Shown here piece after piece: positions 17,518 to 24,896 of a stretch of 64,000 nt of DNA. Origin of the DNA: Bacillus sp. Cs-700 (GTDB taxonomy: Bacteria; Bacillota; Bacilli; Bacillales; Guptibacillaceae); NCBI RefSeq assembly GCF_011082085.1, contig NZ_CP041063.1, positions 1,426,001 to 1,490,000 on the forward strand, in the 5' to 3' direction. The position numbers and the translations under genes are program-made. The first letter of the stretch is position 1. Each line of letters starts with the position of its first letter. The notes beneath the pieces are model-generated. The model was not told where the DNA came from. It worked only from the letters and a program-made list of their open reading frames with translations, and made no database searches.

Positions 17518-18198
17518 TTATAATTCAATTGTTTCGCCTGATTGTAAAACTTTACCTTTCGTTCCTTTAAGGCTATCTGCAAACGCCTCACCATCTTGTT
17601 CAATAAGTGGAAACGTATTGTAATGAATAGGCACAGTTACGTCTGCGCTAATCCATTTCGCAGCAACAGCTGCGTCCTCTGGTCCCATTGTAAAATTATC
17701 CCCAATCGGCAAGAACGCAAGATCAATTGACTTATCAGACAATAGCTTCATATCTGAAAAGAGTCCGGTATCGCCCGCGTGATAAACCGTCTTTCCTTCT
17801 GCACTAAAGAGAATACCCGATGGCATGCCCGTGTAGATAATTTGCTGATTTTCTTCTTCTGTATAGCTCGAACCATGGAATGCTTGCGTTAGCTTCACTT
17901 TACCAAATTCAAATTCGTGAGCGCCACCAATTGCCATAGGGTGAGCATTAACCCCTTTAAATTCAAGGTATGTAGCCAATTCAAATGGAGCTACGACTAA
18001 AGCATCATTTCGTTTCGCAATATCAACTGTATCTCCGACGTGATCATTATGTCCGTGTGTCAATAAAATAACGTCGCACTTCACTTCGTTAGCGTCTAAC
18101 TTACATTGTCCATTACCTGAGATAAAAGGATCAATTAAAATTTTTGCTTTTTCCGTGACAATCTCAACAACTGAATGACCATGAAATGTAACTTTCAT
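17518..18198 (-). CDS. ytkL: Metal-dependent hydrolase of the UPF0173/YtkL family
   Basis: The 226-residue protein has the metallo-beta-lactamase fold. It shows [12 protein letters not shown] at the N-terminus, the metal ligands [12 protein letters not shown] near residues 44-56, and a [10 protein letters not shown] motif near 139. It is a compact single-domain hydrolase with an unknown substrate. It matches YtkL. It lies 98 bases downstream of a PspA operon on the same strand, with no terminator visible between them, so read-through is possible. Confidence 0.9.
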
Positions 18199-18296: not shown

Positions 18297-19850
18297 CTAG
18301 TAATACAACCATGCTCGTTCATATTTTTCGATTAAATGAGGTTGAATAAGTGTATTCGGTTCAAATCGAACCTTTTTCCCTTCTCTCATCATCTGTTGAT
18401 CTTCATCTTTCCCAAACACGCTAAGGGAGGGAATCATCTCGCTTGATAGAAATTTGGTTTTTACAGCAAGCTTTAGGTTCTCTTGATCTACCTGTTCTCT
18501 CGTCCCCATCACAAAACCCCAGTTACCAAAGCTCGGTATGTCGACGTGGTAATTTGAAGTGAATAAACCAGTCTCTGCGATCGTGCGATCAATTGTCCAA
18601 TAAGCTTCTCTTGCAAACAATGGACTTGTTGCTTGTACCATTAACGCTCCGTTGATTTCCAAATGGTTACGTAACAACGAATAGAATTCCCACGTATACA
18701 ATTTGTTTAACGATTCATTATTTGGATCAGGAAGATCAGCAATGATCACATCAAATGTTTTTTCTTCTTGTTTAATATATTGAAAAGCATCTTCATTTTT
18801 AATTTGAACACGTTTATCTTCAAGCGCATGCTCGTTTAATTCCGTTAATAAGTGATGTTCTCTAGCGAGCTTCACCATTTCAGGATCTAAATCTACGACT
18901 GTTATCGATTTCACGCGATCATATTTTAAAAGCTCTCGAACGGCTAGTCCATCTCCGCCTCCCAGTAATAATACACTTTCAGCATTTTGAACTGTCGCCA
19001 TCGGGATATGCACAAGCGTTTCGTGGTATCGATGTTCATCACTTGAACTAAACTGAAGCTGTCCATTCAAAAAAAGTCTAAGATCTCCTTGTTCCCTCGT
19101 TAAGGTGATTTTTTGATAAGAAGTTTCTTCCGAGTAAATAATTGGATCTTTGTATAAACGCTGCTCAAAAGAGAAAGCCATTTCCTCACCAAAAATTGTA
19201 CCGACAACCATTAGTAAGAACAAAAGTATTGCTATTCCAATATAAACAGCTCGATAAACCATCTCTTTTCGAAATGAATAAATCATCCAAAATGCGACGA
19301 GAATGTTCACGAGAGCGACAAGGAAAGCTGATTTTACAAGGCCAAATTCTGGTCGAAGGTAAAAGGCAAATAATAGTCCTCCTACAAGTCCTCCTGCATA
19401 GTCAGAAAAGAGCACTCTTGCTGTACTTTTATTCATTTCTACACCAATTTCATTCGCTTTTCGAATCAAAATTGGTAGTTCAAGGCCCGTTAATCCGCCT
19501 ACAATAAGAATGGTCGTATAGAGTACAATAGTCGTTGCTTCTTCTCCTGCAATTGCCATAATTCCAAACACCGTAAAACTAGAAAACCCACCTATTAAAC
19601 CAATAAGAAGTTCTATCGCAATAAATCTTGTAATCAAGTTCTTCACAACTTTTTCACTCAGGGATGCGCCAATCCCCATTCCAGTCAGAAAAAGCGAAAT
19701 GGTTAACGTATATTGCTTTACACCATCACCTAGTATGTAGGATCCTAACGCGCCGAACAGCACTTCAAAAATAATTCCGCATATCGATACAATTCCTGAA
19801 GCCCAGTACAACTGACTGCTTTTACTAAACGTCCTGCTCATGACTTTCAC
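18297..19850 (-). CDS. Membrane-bound spermidine-synthase-like aminopropyltransferase
   Basis: The 517-residue protein has about seven N-terminal transmembrane helices (residues 10-225), then a soluble spermidine synthase domain. The nucleotide motif LLLGGGDGLAVREL lies near 295 with VVDLDPEMVKLAR after it. The catalytic-type motif ADLPDP is near 370. Such fusions occur in many bacteria; whether they make polyamines or modify something in the membrane is not established. It is the last gene of a six-gene operon with DUF350, DUF4247, PspA and DUF4178 proteins. No S-adenosylmethionine decarboxylase is present nearby, so donor supply must come from elsewhere. A domain assignment is firm; the substrate is not. 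Confidence 0.88.
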   Translation of the reverse strand: MKVMSRTFSKSSQLYWASGIVSICGIIFEVLFGALGSYILGDGVKQYTLTISLFLTGMGIGASLSEKVVKNLITRFIAIELLIGLIGGFSSFTVFGIMAIAGEEATTIVLYTTILIVGGLTGLELPILIRKANEIGVEMNKSTARVLFSDYAGGLVGGLLFAFYLRPEFGLVKSAFLVALVNILVAFWMIYSFRKEMVYRAVYIGIAILLFLLMVVGTIFGEEMAFSFEQRLYKDPIIYSEETSYQKITLTREQGDLRLFLNGQLQFSSSDEHRYHETLVHIPMATVQNAESVLLLGGGDGLAVRELLKYDRVKSITVVDLDPEMVKLAREHHLLTELNEHALEDKRVQIKNEDAFQYIKQEEKTFDVIIADLPDPNNESLNKLYTWEFYSLLRNHLEINGALMVQATSPLFAREAYWTIDRTIAETGLFTSNYHVDIPSFGNWGFVMGTREQVDQENLKLAVKTKFLSSEMIPSLSVFGKDEDQQMMREGKKVRFEPNTLIQPHLIEKYERAWLYY

Positions 19851-19871
19851 CTTCAGCTGTTCATTTCTTTT

Positions 19872-20267
19872 TTACGTGATTGATGCTCCTACTACTAAAC
19901 CAAGACCAATGGAAACGCACATAGAGAGTATACCTACTGATACAACACCTTCACTAAGCTTTTGTTCCACTGAGAAACGCCTTGTAAGAAAATCAAAGAT
20001 ATAATAAGCAACCAGTTGAAGAACCACGCCATAGGCTCCCCATATGACTGTATCGAGAACATCTGAACTATGATAAATGGCAAAAGCTAAGATAAGACAA
20101 ATTCCAATAATCTTACCACCAATGGATAGCGCAACTGCCGTATTTCCGTTTTCAACCTGTTCCCAATCCTTGTATTTTGTCGTAATCAATTCAAAAATAA
20201 TTAATCCAACAACTACAACAACAATCGCTGCAATAAAATAAATAAATGTTAGTAAAAATGGTCCCAT
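19872..20267 (-). CDS. DUF350 membrane protein (YjfL-like)
   Basis: The 131-residue protein has four hydrophobic helices in two pairs, as expected for DUF350: FIYFIAAIVVVVVGLIIFEL, then GGKIIGICLILAFAIYHS, a VIWGAYGVVLQLVAYYIFDF helix, and a C-terminal VGILSMCVSIGLGLVVGASI. E. coli YjfL, in the yjfIJKLMC cluster with a PspA homologue, belongs to the same family. It lies 21 bases upstream of the aminopropyltransferase gene. A membrane anchor or channel-like role beside PspA is inferred only. Confidence 0.85.
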   Translation of the reverse strand: MGPFLLTFIYFIAAIVVVVVGLIIFELITTKYKDWEQVENGNTAVALSIGGKIIGICLILAFAIYHSSDVLDTVIWGAYGVVLQLVAYYIFDFLTRRFSVEQKLSEGVVSVGILSMCVSIGLGLVVGASIT

Positions 20268-20286
20268 TATGATGATCCTCCTTCAA

Positions 20287-20847
20287 TTATTTCCCTGTTC
20301 CCGGACCGCCGCCGCGACTCGATCCTCGAAAAGACGGAATCGTTGTCGGTCCTTTATATGTACCACCCGTGGTGCCATATCCTCCATAACAATTCCCAGT
20401 TGCGTTCAAACAACGGTTTTTTTGTTTTTTTCCCCAGTCATCTACATCCAGTATTTCATCTAGAATATAATAAGCTAGTAACCCATTAAAGAAATTAGGT
20501 TGGTAGTTATCTCGTACAAATCCAACTGTAGCGACTTCGACGAGGGTATTCGATGCGTCATCATTTTCTTGCAACGTAACGATATAGTCATCATAAACGA
20601 GAATTTGCTTGCCTTCTTTTAATTCACTGACTTCATTCGGCTTTATTTGTTCCTGTAAGTAGGAGGCAACAGTAGGGATATCTTCCTCAGCATTATAAAC
20701 CTTTGAGACATCGCTTGAATCCACGCTGCTTTCAACGACATCTTCAAGCTGATAACGATCTTCGACGATTTCTTGAATATCCTTCGTAATCCCACATGCC
20801 GATAAGAGCAGAATGAATGCTGTCAGTAATCCAGTGAGCCATTTCAT
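20287..20847 (-). CDS. DUF4247 lipoprotein
   Basis: A signal peptide ends in the lipobox LLSAC (residues 14-18), so the mature protein should be lipid-anchored outside the membrane. The middle domain (about 25-140) matches DUF4247 in size and gene neighbourhood. The C-terminus is unusual: about 40 residues rich in Gly, Thr, Ser and Arg, with two cysteines in NRCLNATGNCYGGYG. This is like the exposed glycine-rich tails of some envelope proteins. It is encoded between PspA and DUF350, which places part of the system on the outer face of the membrane. Its function is unknown. Confidence 0.8.
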   Translation of the reverse strand: MKWLTGLLTAFILLLSACGITKDIQEIVEDRYQLEDVVESSVDSSDVSKVYNAEEDIPTVASYLQEQIKPNEVSELKEGKQILVYDDYIVTLQENDDASNTLVEVATVGFVRDNYQPNFFNGLLAYYILDEILDVDDWGKKQKNRCLNATGNCYGGYGTTGGTYKGPTTIPSFRGSSRGGGPGTGK

Positions 20848-20873
20848 TCTTCCACCCCATTTAAGGGGAAAGC

Positions 20874-21545
20874 TTATTCTTTCCCCATTTTTTTCTTAAG
20901 CTCTGCCAATTCATCATCGATACCGTCATTTTTGTCAAGTGCATCAAGCTCATCATCAAGAGATCGACTTTTCGAACGCATATCTTCACTTGTCTCAGCT
21001 TCCGCCTCGTATTGAAGAACTTTTTCCTCCATCCGCTCAAAACCACGTTTAGAATCATCACCGCCAATATCAGACATGGCACGATTTATCTTCGTTTTCG
21101 TTTTGGCTGACTCTGCACGAGCCTTTAGACTATCTTTCTTCAGCTGCATTTGACGATACTCTTCTTTCATCTCATCTAACTTTGAACGAAGAGTATCCGC
21201 ATCCGCCTTCGCTCTTTCATAAGATGTCTTCAGTGTTTCCGCTTTTGCTTCATGATCTTTTTTATCTTGAAGCGCTCTTCTGGCTAAATCATCATTATCA
21301 GATTCTAGCGCTTTCATCGCCTGATCCTGGCGCTTTGAAACCATTGCGTTGGCATCATCCCATTTCTTTTTTAACATTTTTTCATTCGATATTTGTTTCG
21401 CTACTGCTGTTTCAGCATCTCGAATATCTGCTTCCATATCCCTCATAAACTGTTCTAGCATCTTTACCGGGTCTTCCGCCTTATCAAGTGCAGCATTTAG
21501 TTCAGAAGACATGATCGTTTTAACTCGTTTAAACATATTAAACAT
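20874..21545 (-). CDS. pspA: Phage shock protein A (PspA/IM30 family)
   Basis: The 223-residue protein is nearly all helix and coiled coil, with the family start MFNMFKRVKTIMSSELNAALD and the motif KAEDPVKMLEQFMRDME. PspA proteins are ESCRT-III-like and polymerise on damaged inner membranes to keep them sealed. A charged C-terminal helix (KNDGIDDELAELKKKMG) is present. GAGAGGATG precedes the ATG. In B. subtilis, pspA is under sigma-W in another context. Here it lies inside a six-gene operon with DUF4178, DUF4247, DUF350 and a membrane aminopropyltransferase. Confidence 0.93.
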   Translation of the reverse strand: MFNMFKRVKTIMSSELNAALDKAEDPVKMLEQFMRDMEADIRDAETAVAKQISNEKMLKKKWDDANAMVSKRQDQAMKALESDNDDLARRALQDKKDHEAKAETLKTSYERAKADADTLRSKLDEMKEEYRQMQLKKDSLKARAESAKTKTKINRAMSDIGGDDSKRGFERMEEKVLQYEAEAETSEDMRSKSRSLDDELDALDKNDGIDDELAELKKKMGKE

Positions 21546-21559
21546 TTGCTATCATCCTC

Positions 21560-22066
21560 TCATTTACTTCCAGCAAGAATTTTAATTTCATACTCTTCAA
21601 TAGCATATCCTTTGCTTACTTCTACTTCAGAACCCCAAATTTCTATTGATAGAAAGTTTGTTTCATCTTCATTTGAAAAATCGTGGTATTCTACTTCCTG
21701 CCCATTTAAATTACTACCACGCCCAGTCCCTGACACCTTTGCTCGACCATGTTCTTCTCTATAATACGTAACATCGTCTATGGTTAGCTTTTCTGGTATG
21801 GGGCTTGCAAGCTTTTCTTTCACGTTACGATAAATGCCTAGCTCAAGTTCGTCATCCATTTCGGCACTTAGCCATACCGAGGATGCTCCCGATTTCAGCT
21901 GATAGGCGTACCACTTATACCCATTATTCTGATATGTGAGTGATCCAACAACTTCATAATCTTCAAGGTCATAAGTGACAATATCACCAACCCGAATCGA
22001 AAAAACGGTCCTTTCTTTAACCGGTTCTTCGTCCTTCTTTCCGAATAATTTTGATAAAAAACTCAT
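21560..22066 (-). CDS. DUF4178 protein
   Basis: The 168-residue protein matches DUF4178 proteins that accompany PspA in many bacteria. It is rich in beta strands and has a RVGDIVTYDLEDYEVVGSLTY segment, a WYAYQLKSG strand and a EVEYHDFSNEDETNFLSIEIWG region. I chose the ATG at 22066, which follows GGGAGGCGAGG; an upstream in-frame ATG would add seven residues and lies in that site. There is no signal peptide or membrane helix, so it is cytoplasmic. Function is unknown. It ends 14 bases before pspA. Confidence 0.8.
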   Translation of the reverse strand: MSFLSKLFGKKDEEPVKERTVFSIRVGDIVTYDLEDYEVVGSLTYQNNGYKWYAYQLKSGASSVWLSAEMDDELELGIYRNVKEKLASPIPEKLTIDDVTYYREEHGRAKVSGTGRGSNLNGQEVEYHDFSNEDETNFLSIEIWGSEVEVSKGYAIEEYEIKILAGSK

Positions 22067-22121
22067 TTCCTCGCCTCCCACCCTCATAGTTTTATACGAA
22101 TCACTGATAAAAAAGTTCCCA

Positions 22122-22586
22122 TTATTTTTCTGGTTTTCGATGAGAAACCATTCCCTCTTGCTCAGTATAATAGAAATCCAGTGGGGGGCGTTCTGTTAAG
22201 AGAGCTTTCTTTTCCAGTTTAAAGAAGCTGATTTTCCGATACGGATCTCCTTCGATAACCGGAGCTTCTTTCTCAGAATGAATGTATGAGTCCACCGCTC
22301 TCTGAACTGTATCAATCCAAAAAGGAATATGACGGTGTTGTTCTTCAAAAAGTTCAAACGTCTCTCTCGACATATAAAAGGGTTTAGACGGAATACCTCC
22401 AAGGTGAGAAACGAGAAGAGAAGCATCAAGTTCATTGTTATCCTTTACAAGAACTTTTAACGAAATACCATCACGTTTCTTTTCTGCGAATTTACCAACT
22501 GCCTGCCGTATTTCATGAAGGCTTGCTTCTATCATCGTTGGATAATCCACTTTACTGTTTTCATTCTTTTTTCTCCAAAATGCCAT
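22122..22586 (-). CDS. Unrecognised protein leading the PspA operon
   Basis: I do not recognise this 154-residue soluble protein. It begins MAFWRKKNENSKVDYPTMIE and continues as mixed alpha/beta sequence, with SLKVLVKDNNELDASLLVSHLGG and a FYMSRETFELFEEQHRHIPFWIDTV helix region. It has no cysteine, signal peptide or membrane helix. A GGGGAGGTG site precedes the ATG. It is the first gene of the six-gene operon, 55 bases before the DUF4178 gene, so it is probably produced with PspA. It could be a lineage-specific partner or regulator. Confidence 0.7.
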   Translation of the reverse strand: MAFWRKKNENSKVDYPTMIEASLHEIRQAVGKFAEKKRDGISLKVLVKDNNELDASLLVSHLGGIPSKPFYMSRETFELFEEQHRHIPFWIDTVQRAVDSYIHSEKEAPVIEGDPYRKISFFKLEKKALLTERPPLDFYYTEQEGMVSHRKPEK

Positions 22587-22681
22587 GTTTTCACCTCCCC
22601 ATACACATGTTCCGTATTGAATGAAGAAAATCCTTTTCTACATTCACACTTCTTATAATAACGAGCCGTCATACAAAGCGT

Positions 22682-22718
22682 AAAAAAATAAAGCAGCTAC
22701 TAGCTGCTTTATTTTTTT
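22682..22718 (-). terminator. Terminator downstream of ald
   Basis: Two 18-base arms around one central base hold the core AAAGCAGCTA/TAGCTGCTTT with A-runs and T-runs at the ends. It could act in both directions, and overlaps the ald stop. Confidence 0.8.
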
Positions 22719-23835
22719 ACTTTTGAAGGAATGAACGAGCACTTTTATAATCAAGCTGGTGCGCTTCAGCTACTGCTTCATACGTTACAAAACCATGCAT
22801 CGTGTTAATCCCCTTTAACAAAGGTTCATTTTCAAGACAGGCTTTCTTGTATCCTTTATTCGCAAGCTGAACCGCATAAGGAACAGTCACATTCGTTAAG
22901 GCAATCGTGGATGTACGTGGCACAGCACCAGGCATATTAGCTACAGCGTAATGCACAACACCGTGCTTCGTATAGGTTGGATTATCATGAGTTGTGATAC
23001 GATCCGTTGTTTCGAATATACCTCCCTGATCAATCGCAACATCAACGATGACGGAACCAGGCTTCATCTCTTTAATCATCTCTTCCGTCACCAGTTTTGG
23101 CGCTTTTGCTCCTGGAATAAGAACAGCACCGATAACTAGATCTGATTCTCTCACCGCTTCTATAATATTTAGTGGATTGGACATCATCGTATTTATTTCA
23201 GTTCCAAAAATATCATCAAGCTGTCGCATTCGTTCTGGGCTTAAATCCATAATCGTTACGTCTGCTCCAAGTCCCATTGCAATTTTAGCTGCATTCGTTC
23301 CAACAACTCCGCCGCCAATGACAGTAACTTTTCCTCTCTTTACTCCTGGAACGCCCCCTAATAGAATGCCAAGTCCACCTTTGGGTTTCTCAAGAAATTG
23401 AGCACCGATCTGTGCAGCCATTCGGCCAGCCACTTCACTCATAGGAGTTAAAAGAGGTAACGAGCCATTTGGTAGCTGAACCGTTTCATAAGCAATGCCA
23501 ATCACTTTTTTTTCCACAAGCGCCCGTGTCAGCTCAGACTCCGCAGCTAGGTGTAAATATGTAAATAAAATTAGCCCATCACGAAAATATCCATATTCCT
23601 GAGGAAGCGGCTCTTTTACTTTCATAACCATTTCCTTCGACCACGCTTCTGCGGCCGTTTCCACAAGATGAGCGCCAGCTTCTAGATACTGCTCATCTTC
23701 AAAACCTGAACCCACTCCCGCCCCTTTTTCGATATATACTTCATGGCCGAAGCTCGTTAAACTTAATACTCCAGCAGGTGTCATCGCTACTCGGTTCTCA
23801 TTGTTTTTCACTTCTACGGGAATGCCAATATGCAT
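22717..23835 (-). CDS. ald: Alanine dehydrogenase
   Basis: The enzyme interconverts L-alanine and pyruvate plus ammonia with NAD; in Bacillus it is used for alanine catabolism and spore outgrowth. The start is [20 protein letters not shown], which matches the family. I chose the ATG at 23835, preceded by GAAGGAGGAG; an upstream in-frame extension of 14 codons is not typical. Substrate residues are visible in KVKEPLP and LFTYLHLA. The NAD fold has [15 protein letters not shown]. The 372-residue length is normal. Confidence 0.95.
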
Positions 23836-24186: not shown

Positions 24187-24525
24187 TCACACTATTATCA
24201 TATACCCCACAGTTACCATTAACAACCCGCTAATTAAGCTAACAACGATGTAAACAACCGATAGCCAAATCTTTGTTGCAGCGAGCTCAAAAGCTTCGTA
24301 CATAAATGTTGAAAAAGTCGTCAACGCTCCGAGAAAACCTGTTGAGATCCCTGGCCCCCAATCTCCCGCTCCAAACGCCATCCCCATTAAGAAACTCCCT
24401 AATAGATTTACTAAAAGAGTTGCTAGCGGGAAATGAAATTGATTAAAGCGGTTTACCCATAGTGCTGTGACATAACGAAGCCATGCCCCAACGCCGCCAC
24501 CAATAGCAACCATCAACCAATCCAT
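24187..24525 (-). CDS. crcB: Fluoride exporter CrcB/Fluc, second subunit
   Basis: This 112-residue membrane protein has four helices. It shows the family motifs GGGVGAWLRY, TLLVNLLGSFLMG and GFLGALTTFSTFMYE, where the TTFSTF segment lines the fluoride pore. Fluc channels are dimers in which the two chains lie in opposite orientations. Here two different crcB genes are two bases apart, as in many Bacillus, so a heterodimer is likely. Confidence 0.93.
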   Translation of the reverse strand: MDWLMVAIGGGVGAWLRYVTALWVNRFNQFHFPLATLLVNLLGSFLMGMAFGAGDWGPGISTGFLGALTTFSTFMYEAFELAATKIWLSVVYIVVSLISGLLMVTVGYMIIV

Positions 24526-24527
24526 CC

Positions 24528-24896
24528 TTAGTCCCTCCCCACTTTTTTCGCTAAGGAAACCCCTATGATGACGCTTAAGATTCCAGCTAGAATACTACCG
24601 CCACCATAGAAAGCTAATCCCCAAAAGTGACCATCTCTTATGTAGACGAACAAATCAAGAGAGTACGTGGAAAAGGTTGTAAATGACCCTAACAAACCAG
24701 TCGCAATAAATTTTTTCACTGAATCTGAAAGGCGAGGATTCATACTTACGAATTGATAGAAAAAACCTAGAAGAATGGAGCCGACGATATTGACAACAAA
24801 GGTAGCGATTGGACTGCCATTCATCACTGTACCAATTAAACCTCTAAGAGAGGCTCCAATGGCTCCACCAGCTATGACAGCAAAACTATTTTTCAC
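24528..24896 (-). CDS. crcB: Fluoride exporter CrcB/Fluc, first subunit
   Basis: The 122-residue partner carries GGAIGASLRGLIGT, TFVVNIVGSILLGFFYQF and GLLGSFTTFSTYSLD. It has four predicted helices and reads directly into the second crcB gene. An AAAGGAGCCGC site lies before the ATG. I saw no fluoride riboswitch signature in the leader. Fluoride export as a heterodimer with its neighbour is the family role. Confidence 0.93.
   Translation of the reverse strand: MKNSFAVIAGGAIGASLRGLIGTVMNGSPIATFVVNIVGSILLGFFYQFVSMNPRLSDSVKKFIATGLLGSFTTFSTYSLDLFVYIRDGHFWGLAFYGGGSILAGILSVIIGVSLAKKVGRD

Follow-up and report, generated by a model that had tools for sequence, protein, structure and literature searches.

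PspA operons that carry a spermidine-synthase-like membrane enzyme form a class already in print. The part of Ravi et al. 2024 (PMC11237479) covered here describes six-to-seven-gene PspA operons with a 7TM-spermidine synthase (seven transmembrane, TM, segments), DUF350, DUF4178 and a lipoprotein, and proposes in general terms that they sense polyamines or the aminopropylation of other substrates; that part names no acceptor or tail, and the word 'lysine' occurs 0 times in the main text. The operon class has thus been described in the literature covered, and the reaction of its membrane enzyme has not. We analysed such a cluster in a 64,000-nucleotide stretch of the genome of Bacillus sp. Cs-700 (RefSeq assembly GCF_011082085.1, contig NZ_CP041063.1, positions 1,426,001 to 1,490,000 of the forward strand; hereafter the window), where six genes at 18297-22586 encode, among others, a DUF4247 lipoprotein, a DUF350 membrane protein and the membrane spermidine-synthase-like enzyme, here called SpeEm. 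The new element is a strong pairing, seen by sequence comparison across phyla, of SpeEm with a predicted exported protein ending in lysine, and this residue is probably what the enzyme modifies.

Closely similar is the 'second major group' of that paper (Shewanella AAN56744-AAN56747, in the part covered), which likewise has PspA, DUF350, DUF4178, a lipoprotein and a synthase domain fused to 7 TM. The trait of the PspA-CesT/Tir-SpeE group, one cluster with PspA, DUF350, DUF4178 and 7TM-SpeE, is also found in the window. The window differs from the group as described there in that its lipoprotein is DUF4247 by Pfam name, where the group has Ctha_1186, that it has a sigma-W-type promoter-like site, and that DUF3939 stands first in one clade; no CesT/Tir gene was recognised in the window cluster, where gene 1 is DUF3939 and has no CesT match in Pfam.

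A likeness to E. coli yjfIJKLMC, claimed in a preliminary description of this stretch, is borne out by gene content, as that operon holds DUF2170, PspA, DUF2491, DUF350, DUF1190 and YjfC and so shares PspA and DUF350. Both there and in ygiBC an exported Gly-rich-tailed protein lies beside a polyamine enzyme. The E. coli systems differ in that the enzyme is an ATP-grasp ligase (RefSeq names YjfC and YgiC peptide--spermidine ligases), the exported protein is DUF1190, and every tail read has Gly, Ser or Glu rather than Lys as its last residue; neither the ATP-grasp peptide-spermidine ligase nor DUF1190 was among the Pfam and NCBIfam matches of the window cluster. Work by Pederick et al. in 2023 is said, on the strength of its title, to be connected with the ligases YjfC and YgiC. 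In P. aeruginosa, the bac operon opens with genes of YjfI and PspA type and, according to the part of PMC10948618 covered, shows a biofilm phenotype. A phrase search of open-licence PMC papers for aminopropyl-lysine found none, and none of the papers on yjf/ygi-type proteins found there (including PMC12568646 and PMC10948618) describes modification of a Lys tail in its title or the beginning of its abstract; among the 10 papers listed of 55 matching a broader search, none is on this subject by its title.

Lysine-ended exported proteins beside SpeEm

The DUF4247 lipoprotein of the window (20287..20847, minus strand; Pfam PF14042, 2e-15) has the lipobox LSAC and a Gly-rich tail, and its last ten residues are SRGGGPGTGK. 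The codons of the end RGGGPGTGK occupy 20290..20316 (minus strand), and the codon of the terminal lysine, the conserved residue and proposed acceptor, lies at 20290-20292 (minus strand). The lipoprotein gene is followed by that of the DUF350 (YjfL-type) membrane protein (19872..20267, minus strand; Pfam PF03994, 5.2e-36) and by SpeEm (18297..19850, minus strand; Pfam PF01564, 1.4e-41), a 517 aa product with a GTG start. SpeEm consists of an N-terminal membrane domain with seven hydrophobic segments and a C-terminal spermidine-synthase-fold domain, and scores 596 bits against NCBIfam NF002956 'polyamine aminopropyltransferase' (cut-off 472 bits).

SpeEm loci were termed DUF350-linked when DUF350 lay within 5.5 kb on the same strand, and a tail was scored when the 2.5 kb 5' of SpeEm held, on its strand, an open reading frame (ORF) that was 40 aa or longer, contained a hydrophobic segment and ended in K. 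Excluded before counting were L217 (a copy of L036), L057 (SpeEm incomplete) and L061 (a soluble SpeE), and L230, a second copy of L055, was left uncounted. A predicted Lys-ended exported ORF stood 5' of SpeEm in 81 of the 88 DUF350-linked loci from several phyla: 38/38 from Bacillaceae and close kin ('Bacillaceae-type'), 7/7 from other Bacillota, 6/7 from Actinomycetota, 19/23 from Pseudomonadota, 7/8 from Bacteroidota and 4/5 of mixed origin. All 81 tails had at least three Gly, Ser or Thr among the last 12 residues. Among controls, Lys-ended ORFs were found in 13/88 loci on the opposite strand (4 with the Gly/Ser/Thr condition), in 9/27 SpeEm loci without linked DUF350 (6 with that condition) and in 1/30 ATP-grasp loci, and the background of C-terminal Lys in other long ORFs of these loci was 3 to 16% by group. 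Of the seven misses, six show a Lys tail on after-the-fact inspection: the SpeEm start had been called too early in L151 and L178, and the tail lay further 5' in L167, beside its DUF350 (L231) for L162, on DUF4178 and 3' in L179, and on a small ORF in L206. In the seventh, L055, none was found.

A sample not chosen by its tail came from a PF14042 (DUF4247) search of 396 Actinomycetota genomes, which gave 17 matches, one of them below the Pfam cut-off and eight of them in genomes already seen earlier. SpeEm was adjacent and the protein ended in Lys in 17/17; 16 of these tails were read without a Lys filter and the 17th (L263) with one.

The tails themselves are diverse. A set of 87, collected by its Lys end after L048, L053, L182, L210 (picked ORF looked spurious) and L217 had been dropped, contains 40 different last hexapeptides (e.g. 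FIPTHK, NRFYHK, AFGRIK, GPGTGK, GIRRGK), and a second Lys falls within the last 15 residues in only 1/87, Arg being common there. Carriers range from 49 to 576 aa and include lipoproteins, single-helix peptides and the ends of DUF4178 proteins; a Pfam scan of 10 of them returned one DUF4247, one DUF4178, one sub-threshold lipoprotein signal and seven without match. With its varied ends on otherwise unrelated carriers and its lone terminal Lys, the tail looks like an enzyme substrate. Three Myxococcota-type loci (L048, L050, L052) have next to SpeEm a divergent ORF with SK as its last residues; in two of the three this ORF encodes a DUF4178 protein.

Where SpeEm lacked a linked DUF350 (19 genomes searched), DUF350 was present elsewhere in nine. 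A Lys tail lay beside the distant DUF350 in G412, G369, G262, G257 and the separately fetched genome G430; G499 and G460 had a Lys tail with a divergent DUF350 adjoining SpeEm; and G005 and G006 showed no Lys tail beside DUF350, yet had a Lys-ended ORF beside SpeEm. No Lys tail was seen in G008. Eight SpeEm genomes without a Lys tail, six actinobacterial (G031, G115, G169, G179, G190, G201) and two of Bacteroidota (G661, G567), gave no DUF350 match. G136 has two SpeEm, one (L152) with a linked DUF350 and a Lys tail and the other (L153) with neither. Several unlinked actinobacterial SpeEm genes (L146, L150, L153, L155, L158, L159) have an exported-looking ORF about 1 kb 5' with a Cys/Gly-rich end (GGGCGGGS or similar); given its negative coding score, this ORF may be spurious or of unusual composition.

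DUF350 is found at many ATP-grasp ligase loci too, together with an exported protein whose tail is of GGFG type. Tails picked by the GGFG-type pattern in 30 such loci (four yielded none) ended in Gly in 17, Ser in 8, Glu in 1 and Lys in 0 of the 26 read, and the E. coli proteins YjfM and YgiB have GG at the C-terminus. A ligase joining spermidine to a peptide needs a free end carboxylate and an aminopropyltransferase needs an amine, so each kind of tail end would fit its own enzyme.

Active site, topology and donor of SpeEm

SpeEm aligns with B. subtilis SpeE (1IY9) over residues 232-453 (E 1.4e-34), sharing the fold, GGGDG and the Gln and catalytic Asp motifs of this soluble enzyme, which differs in having no membrane domain and an unshortened acceptor loop. 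Conservation was scored over 89 Lys-tail-linked SpeEm rows, including near-identical sequences and the copy L217. Invariant in 89/89 are D300 (the Asp of GGGDG), D271, E272, Y275, D322, D354, D372 and D375, and Q246 is kept in 88/89. SpeEm has both marks of SpeE, catalytic DxxDP and GGGDG, which binds decarboxylated S-adenosylmethionine (dcSAM), and since the donor residues are kept, it resembles a spermidine synthase on its dcSAM side. On the acceptor side, marked in soluble SpeE by the loop PTYPSGxW, it departs from the soluble enzymes, with PTYPSGxW replaced by PSF-GxW and QTDNP by QATSP. The form PSF-GxW is that of the window and of most membrane forms shown, with PAF-GxW in Gordonia and QTF-EEW in L059 and L060. 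These last two, from Cloacimonadota and UBP17, are distant SpeEm sequences (30% identity) that carry an insertion close to where the catalytic domain begins, and an ORF with many helices lies immediately 5' of them.

Q266, Q406 and S409 occur in 89/89 tail-linked SpeEm and in 0/7 DUF350-less actinobacterial SpeEm; D300 and, in the membrane domain, E124, D150, Y151 and N182 are nonetheless retained in 7/7 of the latter.

Positive charges favour a cytoplasmic N-terminus. Across 116 SpeEm sequences, the mean number of Lys plus Arg was 2.34, 1.76, 2.82 and 1.53 for the N-terminus and loops 2, 4 and 6, respectively, against 0.47, 0.01 and 0.47 for loops 1, 3 and 5, and the positive-inside score favoured this orientation in 89/89 rows. 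Given seven crossings, the enzyme domain would then lie outside, on the same side as the lipoprotein tail. An AlphaFold2 model of SpeEm reached pLDDT 94.4 and pTM 0.85.

A likely precedent for a SpeE-fold domain outside the cytoplasm is the fungal enzyme NHMT (AN4663), as described in the part of PMC10349129 covered: it has seven N-terminal helices and a SpeE-fold domain, localises to the endoplasmic reticulum, acts on one end of secretory-pathway proteins, and methylates secreted proteins at the N-terminus (histidine), apparently not before the signal peptide is removed. It differs in using a methyl donor and in having Ile in place of the GGGDG Asp.

The donor was approached through a search for SpeD (PF02675) in 36 genomes, namely 8 Actinomycetota with DUF350-linked SpeEm and 28 Pseudomonadota with SpeEm. 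SpeD was present in 23 of the 28 Pseudomonadota and lay within 10 kb of SpeEm in 14; this frequency and proximity argue for dcSAM as donor.

Proposed modification and competing explanations

The side chain of lysine is an aminobutyl amine, like putrescine, the usual acceptor of the SpeE fold. We infer lysine to be the acceptor and aminopropyl the transferred group: SpeEm would aminopropylate the terminal Lys of the neighbouring exported tail, probably outside the cytoplasm, where its enzyme domain would lie. This would equip a membrane-anchored protein with a cationic arm resembling a polyamine. The arm may bind anionic lipid or teichoic acid, or may signal damage of the membrane to DUF350 and, on the other side, to PspA and DUF4178. 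The preliminary description had the enzyme modify a lipid, a protein or the envelope; comparative evidence would narrow this to a single protein residue, the C-terminal Lys of the adjoining exported protein. Taken as a whole, with the cluster as a sigma-W-type envelope-stress operon, this explanation stands in our judgement just on the probable side. A broader form is put forward more tentatively, at somewhat short of an even chance: that bacteria of several phyla convert the C-terminal Lys of a protein anchored in the envelope to a polyamine (N-epsilon-aminopropyl-lysine, perhaps lengthened further) with a catalytic domain outside the cytoplasm, that yjf-type ligases reach a similar product by placing spermidine on a Gly/Ser-ended carboxylate, and that both are readouts or effectors of PspA stress systems.

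One Lys common to the ends of otherwise unrelated exported proteins reduces the search to a single residue, enzyme and mass shift. If true, the proposal would add a new bacterial protein modification linking polyamines with envelope-stress repair, and one idea, a polyamine-tipped envelope tail, would cover two enzyme types, aminopropyltransferase and peptide-spermidine ligase. In silaffins, polyamines are attached to lysine. These diatom proteins resemble the proposed product in having long-chain polyamines covalently joined to protein (PMC6356823, in the part covered), and differ in being eukaryotic and serving biosilica.

The terminal Lys could instead be an unmodified recognition or membrane-binding element, SpeEm making free polyamine or modifying a partner lipid. 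This would agree with a tail-enzyme link that rests on gene neighbourhood and co-occurrence, and with a tail that accompanies DUF350 as well as SpeEm. We nevertheless consider it unlikely, given that many ligase-linked DUF350 loci have Gly/Ser-ended tails, so that DUF350 itself does not need Lys, and that the last residue is Lys, never Arg, in 17/17 DUF4247 loci (one read with the Lys filter). A membrane-tied but otherwise ordinary spermidine synthase, supplying spermidine to the membrane for PspA, would account for the kept SpeE catalytic motifs and for the NCBIfam name polyamine aminopropyltransferase. It would leave the Lys-ended partner unexplained, however, and the acceptor loop is unlike that of soluble SpeE; moreover, two soluble SpeE genes and two SpeD genes accompany SpeEm in the host genome (4.30 Mb, one contig), so free spermidine should not require SpeEm. 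This reading we hold to be very improbable.

A further possibility is that SpeEm modifies the terminal Lys with S-adenosylmethionine (SAM) itself as donor, by methyl or 3-amino-3-carboxypropyl transfer. NHMT, a fungal 7-helix SpeE-fold protein, is a protein methyltransferase (PMC10349129, in the part covered), and SpeD is missing from part of the genomes searched, as detailed below. The GGGDG Asp, a mark of dcSAM that according to the same source is absent from NHMT, is kept in 89/89 SpeEm, though, and SpeD lies close to SpeEm in half of the Pseudomonadota genomes; transfer from SAM therefore appears distinctly unlikely.

Several observations weigh against aminopropylation of the tail by SpeEm outside the cytoplasm. 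Catalysis there requires dcSAM there, and we know of no dcSAM transporter; the conserved acidic residues of the SpeEm membrane domain suggest a place to look for its passage. Alternatively, the tail may receive its modification in the cytoplasm, ahead of export. The seven crossings are not shown by the structural model, in which the helix string is unbroken through TM5-TM6 (139-192). PF02675 SpeD was not found in 12 of the 36 genomes (7/8 Actinomycetota and 5/28 Pseudomonadota), nor in two of a separate set of eight, one of which (Gordonia) is also among the 36; SpeEm of the SpeD-less Actinomycetota still keeps the dcSAM-type GGGDG. Either dcSAM is perhaps not the donor everywhere, or it has another source, or transfer is from SAM itself, and some of the SpeD-less genomes may be incomplete. 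The tail rule was fixed after tails had been seen, with the opposite strand, unlinked SpeEm and ATP-grasp loci as controls, and a stricter rule, which considered only the highest-scoring exported ORF 5' of SpeEm by coding potential, yielded a Lys end in 64/89 DUF350-linked and 5/27 unlinked loci. This stricter rule was set aside, as its choice frequently fell on the DUF4178 membrane protein or on a gene upstream. No Lys-ended exported ORF was found near SpeEm in the Cytophagales loci L055 and L057, which have SpeEm and a (short) DUF350; conversely, G374 (L171) and G007 (L054, metagenome-assembled), whose genomes may be incomplete, have a Lys tail and no PF03994 match. Finally, the seven DUF350-less SpeEm form one clade, with D372 in 6/7 and D375 in 5/7, and with a single clade and members without catalytic residues, the correlation of Q266, Q406 and S409 with the tail is weak as a test.

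Operon structure, promoter and neighbouring genes

The six ORFs, all on the minus strand, and the gaps of 55, 14, 26, 19 and 21 bases between them were confirmed, the gap figures holding with a DUF4178 start at 22066. Besides the three genes placed above, the cluster comprises the DUF3939 protein, an accessory first gene (22122..22586, minus strand; Pfam PF13075, 3e-48), the predicted cytoplasmic DUF4178 protein (21560..22066, minus strand; Pfam PF13785, 3.1e-35), which heads the conserved unit discussed below, and the PspA/IM30-family membrane-remodelling protein (20874..21545, minus strand; Pfam PF04012, 1.4e-45). For DUF4178 the listed ORF start is 22087, and the inner start (MSFLSKLF) matches relatives better. 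G-rich ribosome-binding-like stretches precede five of the six starts, the one of SpeEm (GTG) being weak. The nearest named relative is Pseudalkalibacillus hwajinpoensis (L008), with SpeEm 96% identical.

One scan of the collection gave 54 loci, of which 38 were Bacillaceae-type. The order DUF4178-PspA-DUF4247-DUF350-SpeEm was kept in 37 of these 38, so the clustering of these last five genes is not due to chance. DUF3939 was present in nine of the 38 and not seen in the other 29. Between DUF3939 and DUF4178 lies GGGAAC-N16-CGTA (22095..22120, minus strand), a site resembling an extracytoplasmic function (ECF; sigma-W-type) promoter; here the window and nine relatives align on a GGAAC- or GAAAC-like element with CGTA 16 bases away, right after the DUF3939 stop. 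The exact pattern TGAAAC-N16/17-CGTA, which we take to be the sigma-W consensus, was found less than 160 bp 5' of DUF4178 in 28/38 Bacillaceae-type loci; 29 of its 32 matches in about 1.02 million strand-bases of these loci fell just 5' of that gene. The exact pattern was not found 5' of DUF4178 in the window, where the degenerate form stands alone. Because DUF3939 occurs in only 9/38 loci and the promoter-like site falls between genes 1 and 2, the conserved unit appears to comprise five genes, and DUF3939 probably lies outside the regulated unit.

The six-gene operon of the preliminary description thus stands as regards real and closely packed genes, whereas the conserved unit looks like five, without DUF3939. 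Its remark that no speD is nearby holds for the window; elsewhere the genome carries two SpeD genes, the nearest about 33 kb from the operon. The Lys tail, the promoter, the five-gene core and the other SpeE and SpeD genes were absent from that description. The membrane-stress link it drew is strengthened by the sigma-W-type promoter and by published comparative genomics (PMC11237479, in the part covered), and the promoter-like site would make the cluster a sigma-W-type envelope-stress operon.

Upstream, a terminator-like hairpin of 19 pairs (22680..22720, minus strand) follows the alanine dehydrogenase gene (ald) and sets ald apart from the six-gene cluster. Directly 3' of SpeEm is a gene for an MBL-fold metal-dependent hydrolase (17518..18198, minus strand; NF001911), which lies less than 300 bp 3' of SpeEm in 27/38 Bacillaceae-type loci and is possibly co-transcribed with, and part of, the operon. 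In Halobacillus massiliensis (L042:276-7530) the operon is tandemly duplicated and the first SpeEm copy truncated. The host genome has a second DUF350 gene outside the window (L002, G000:C1:1382733-1383104). Elsewhere in the window, at 24187-24896, two adjoining small membrane-protein ORFs resemble what we take to be a CrcB/FluC fluoride-exporter pair.

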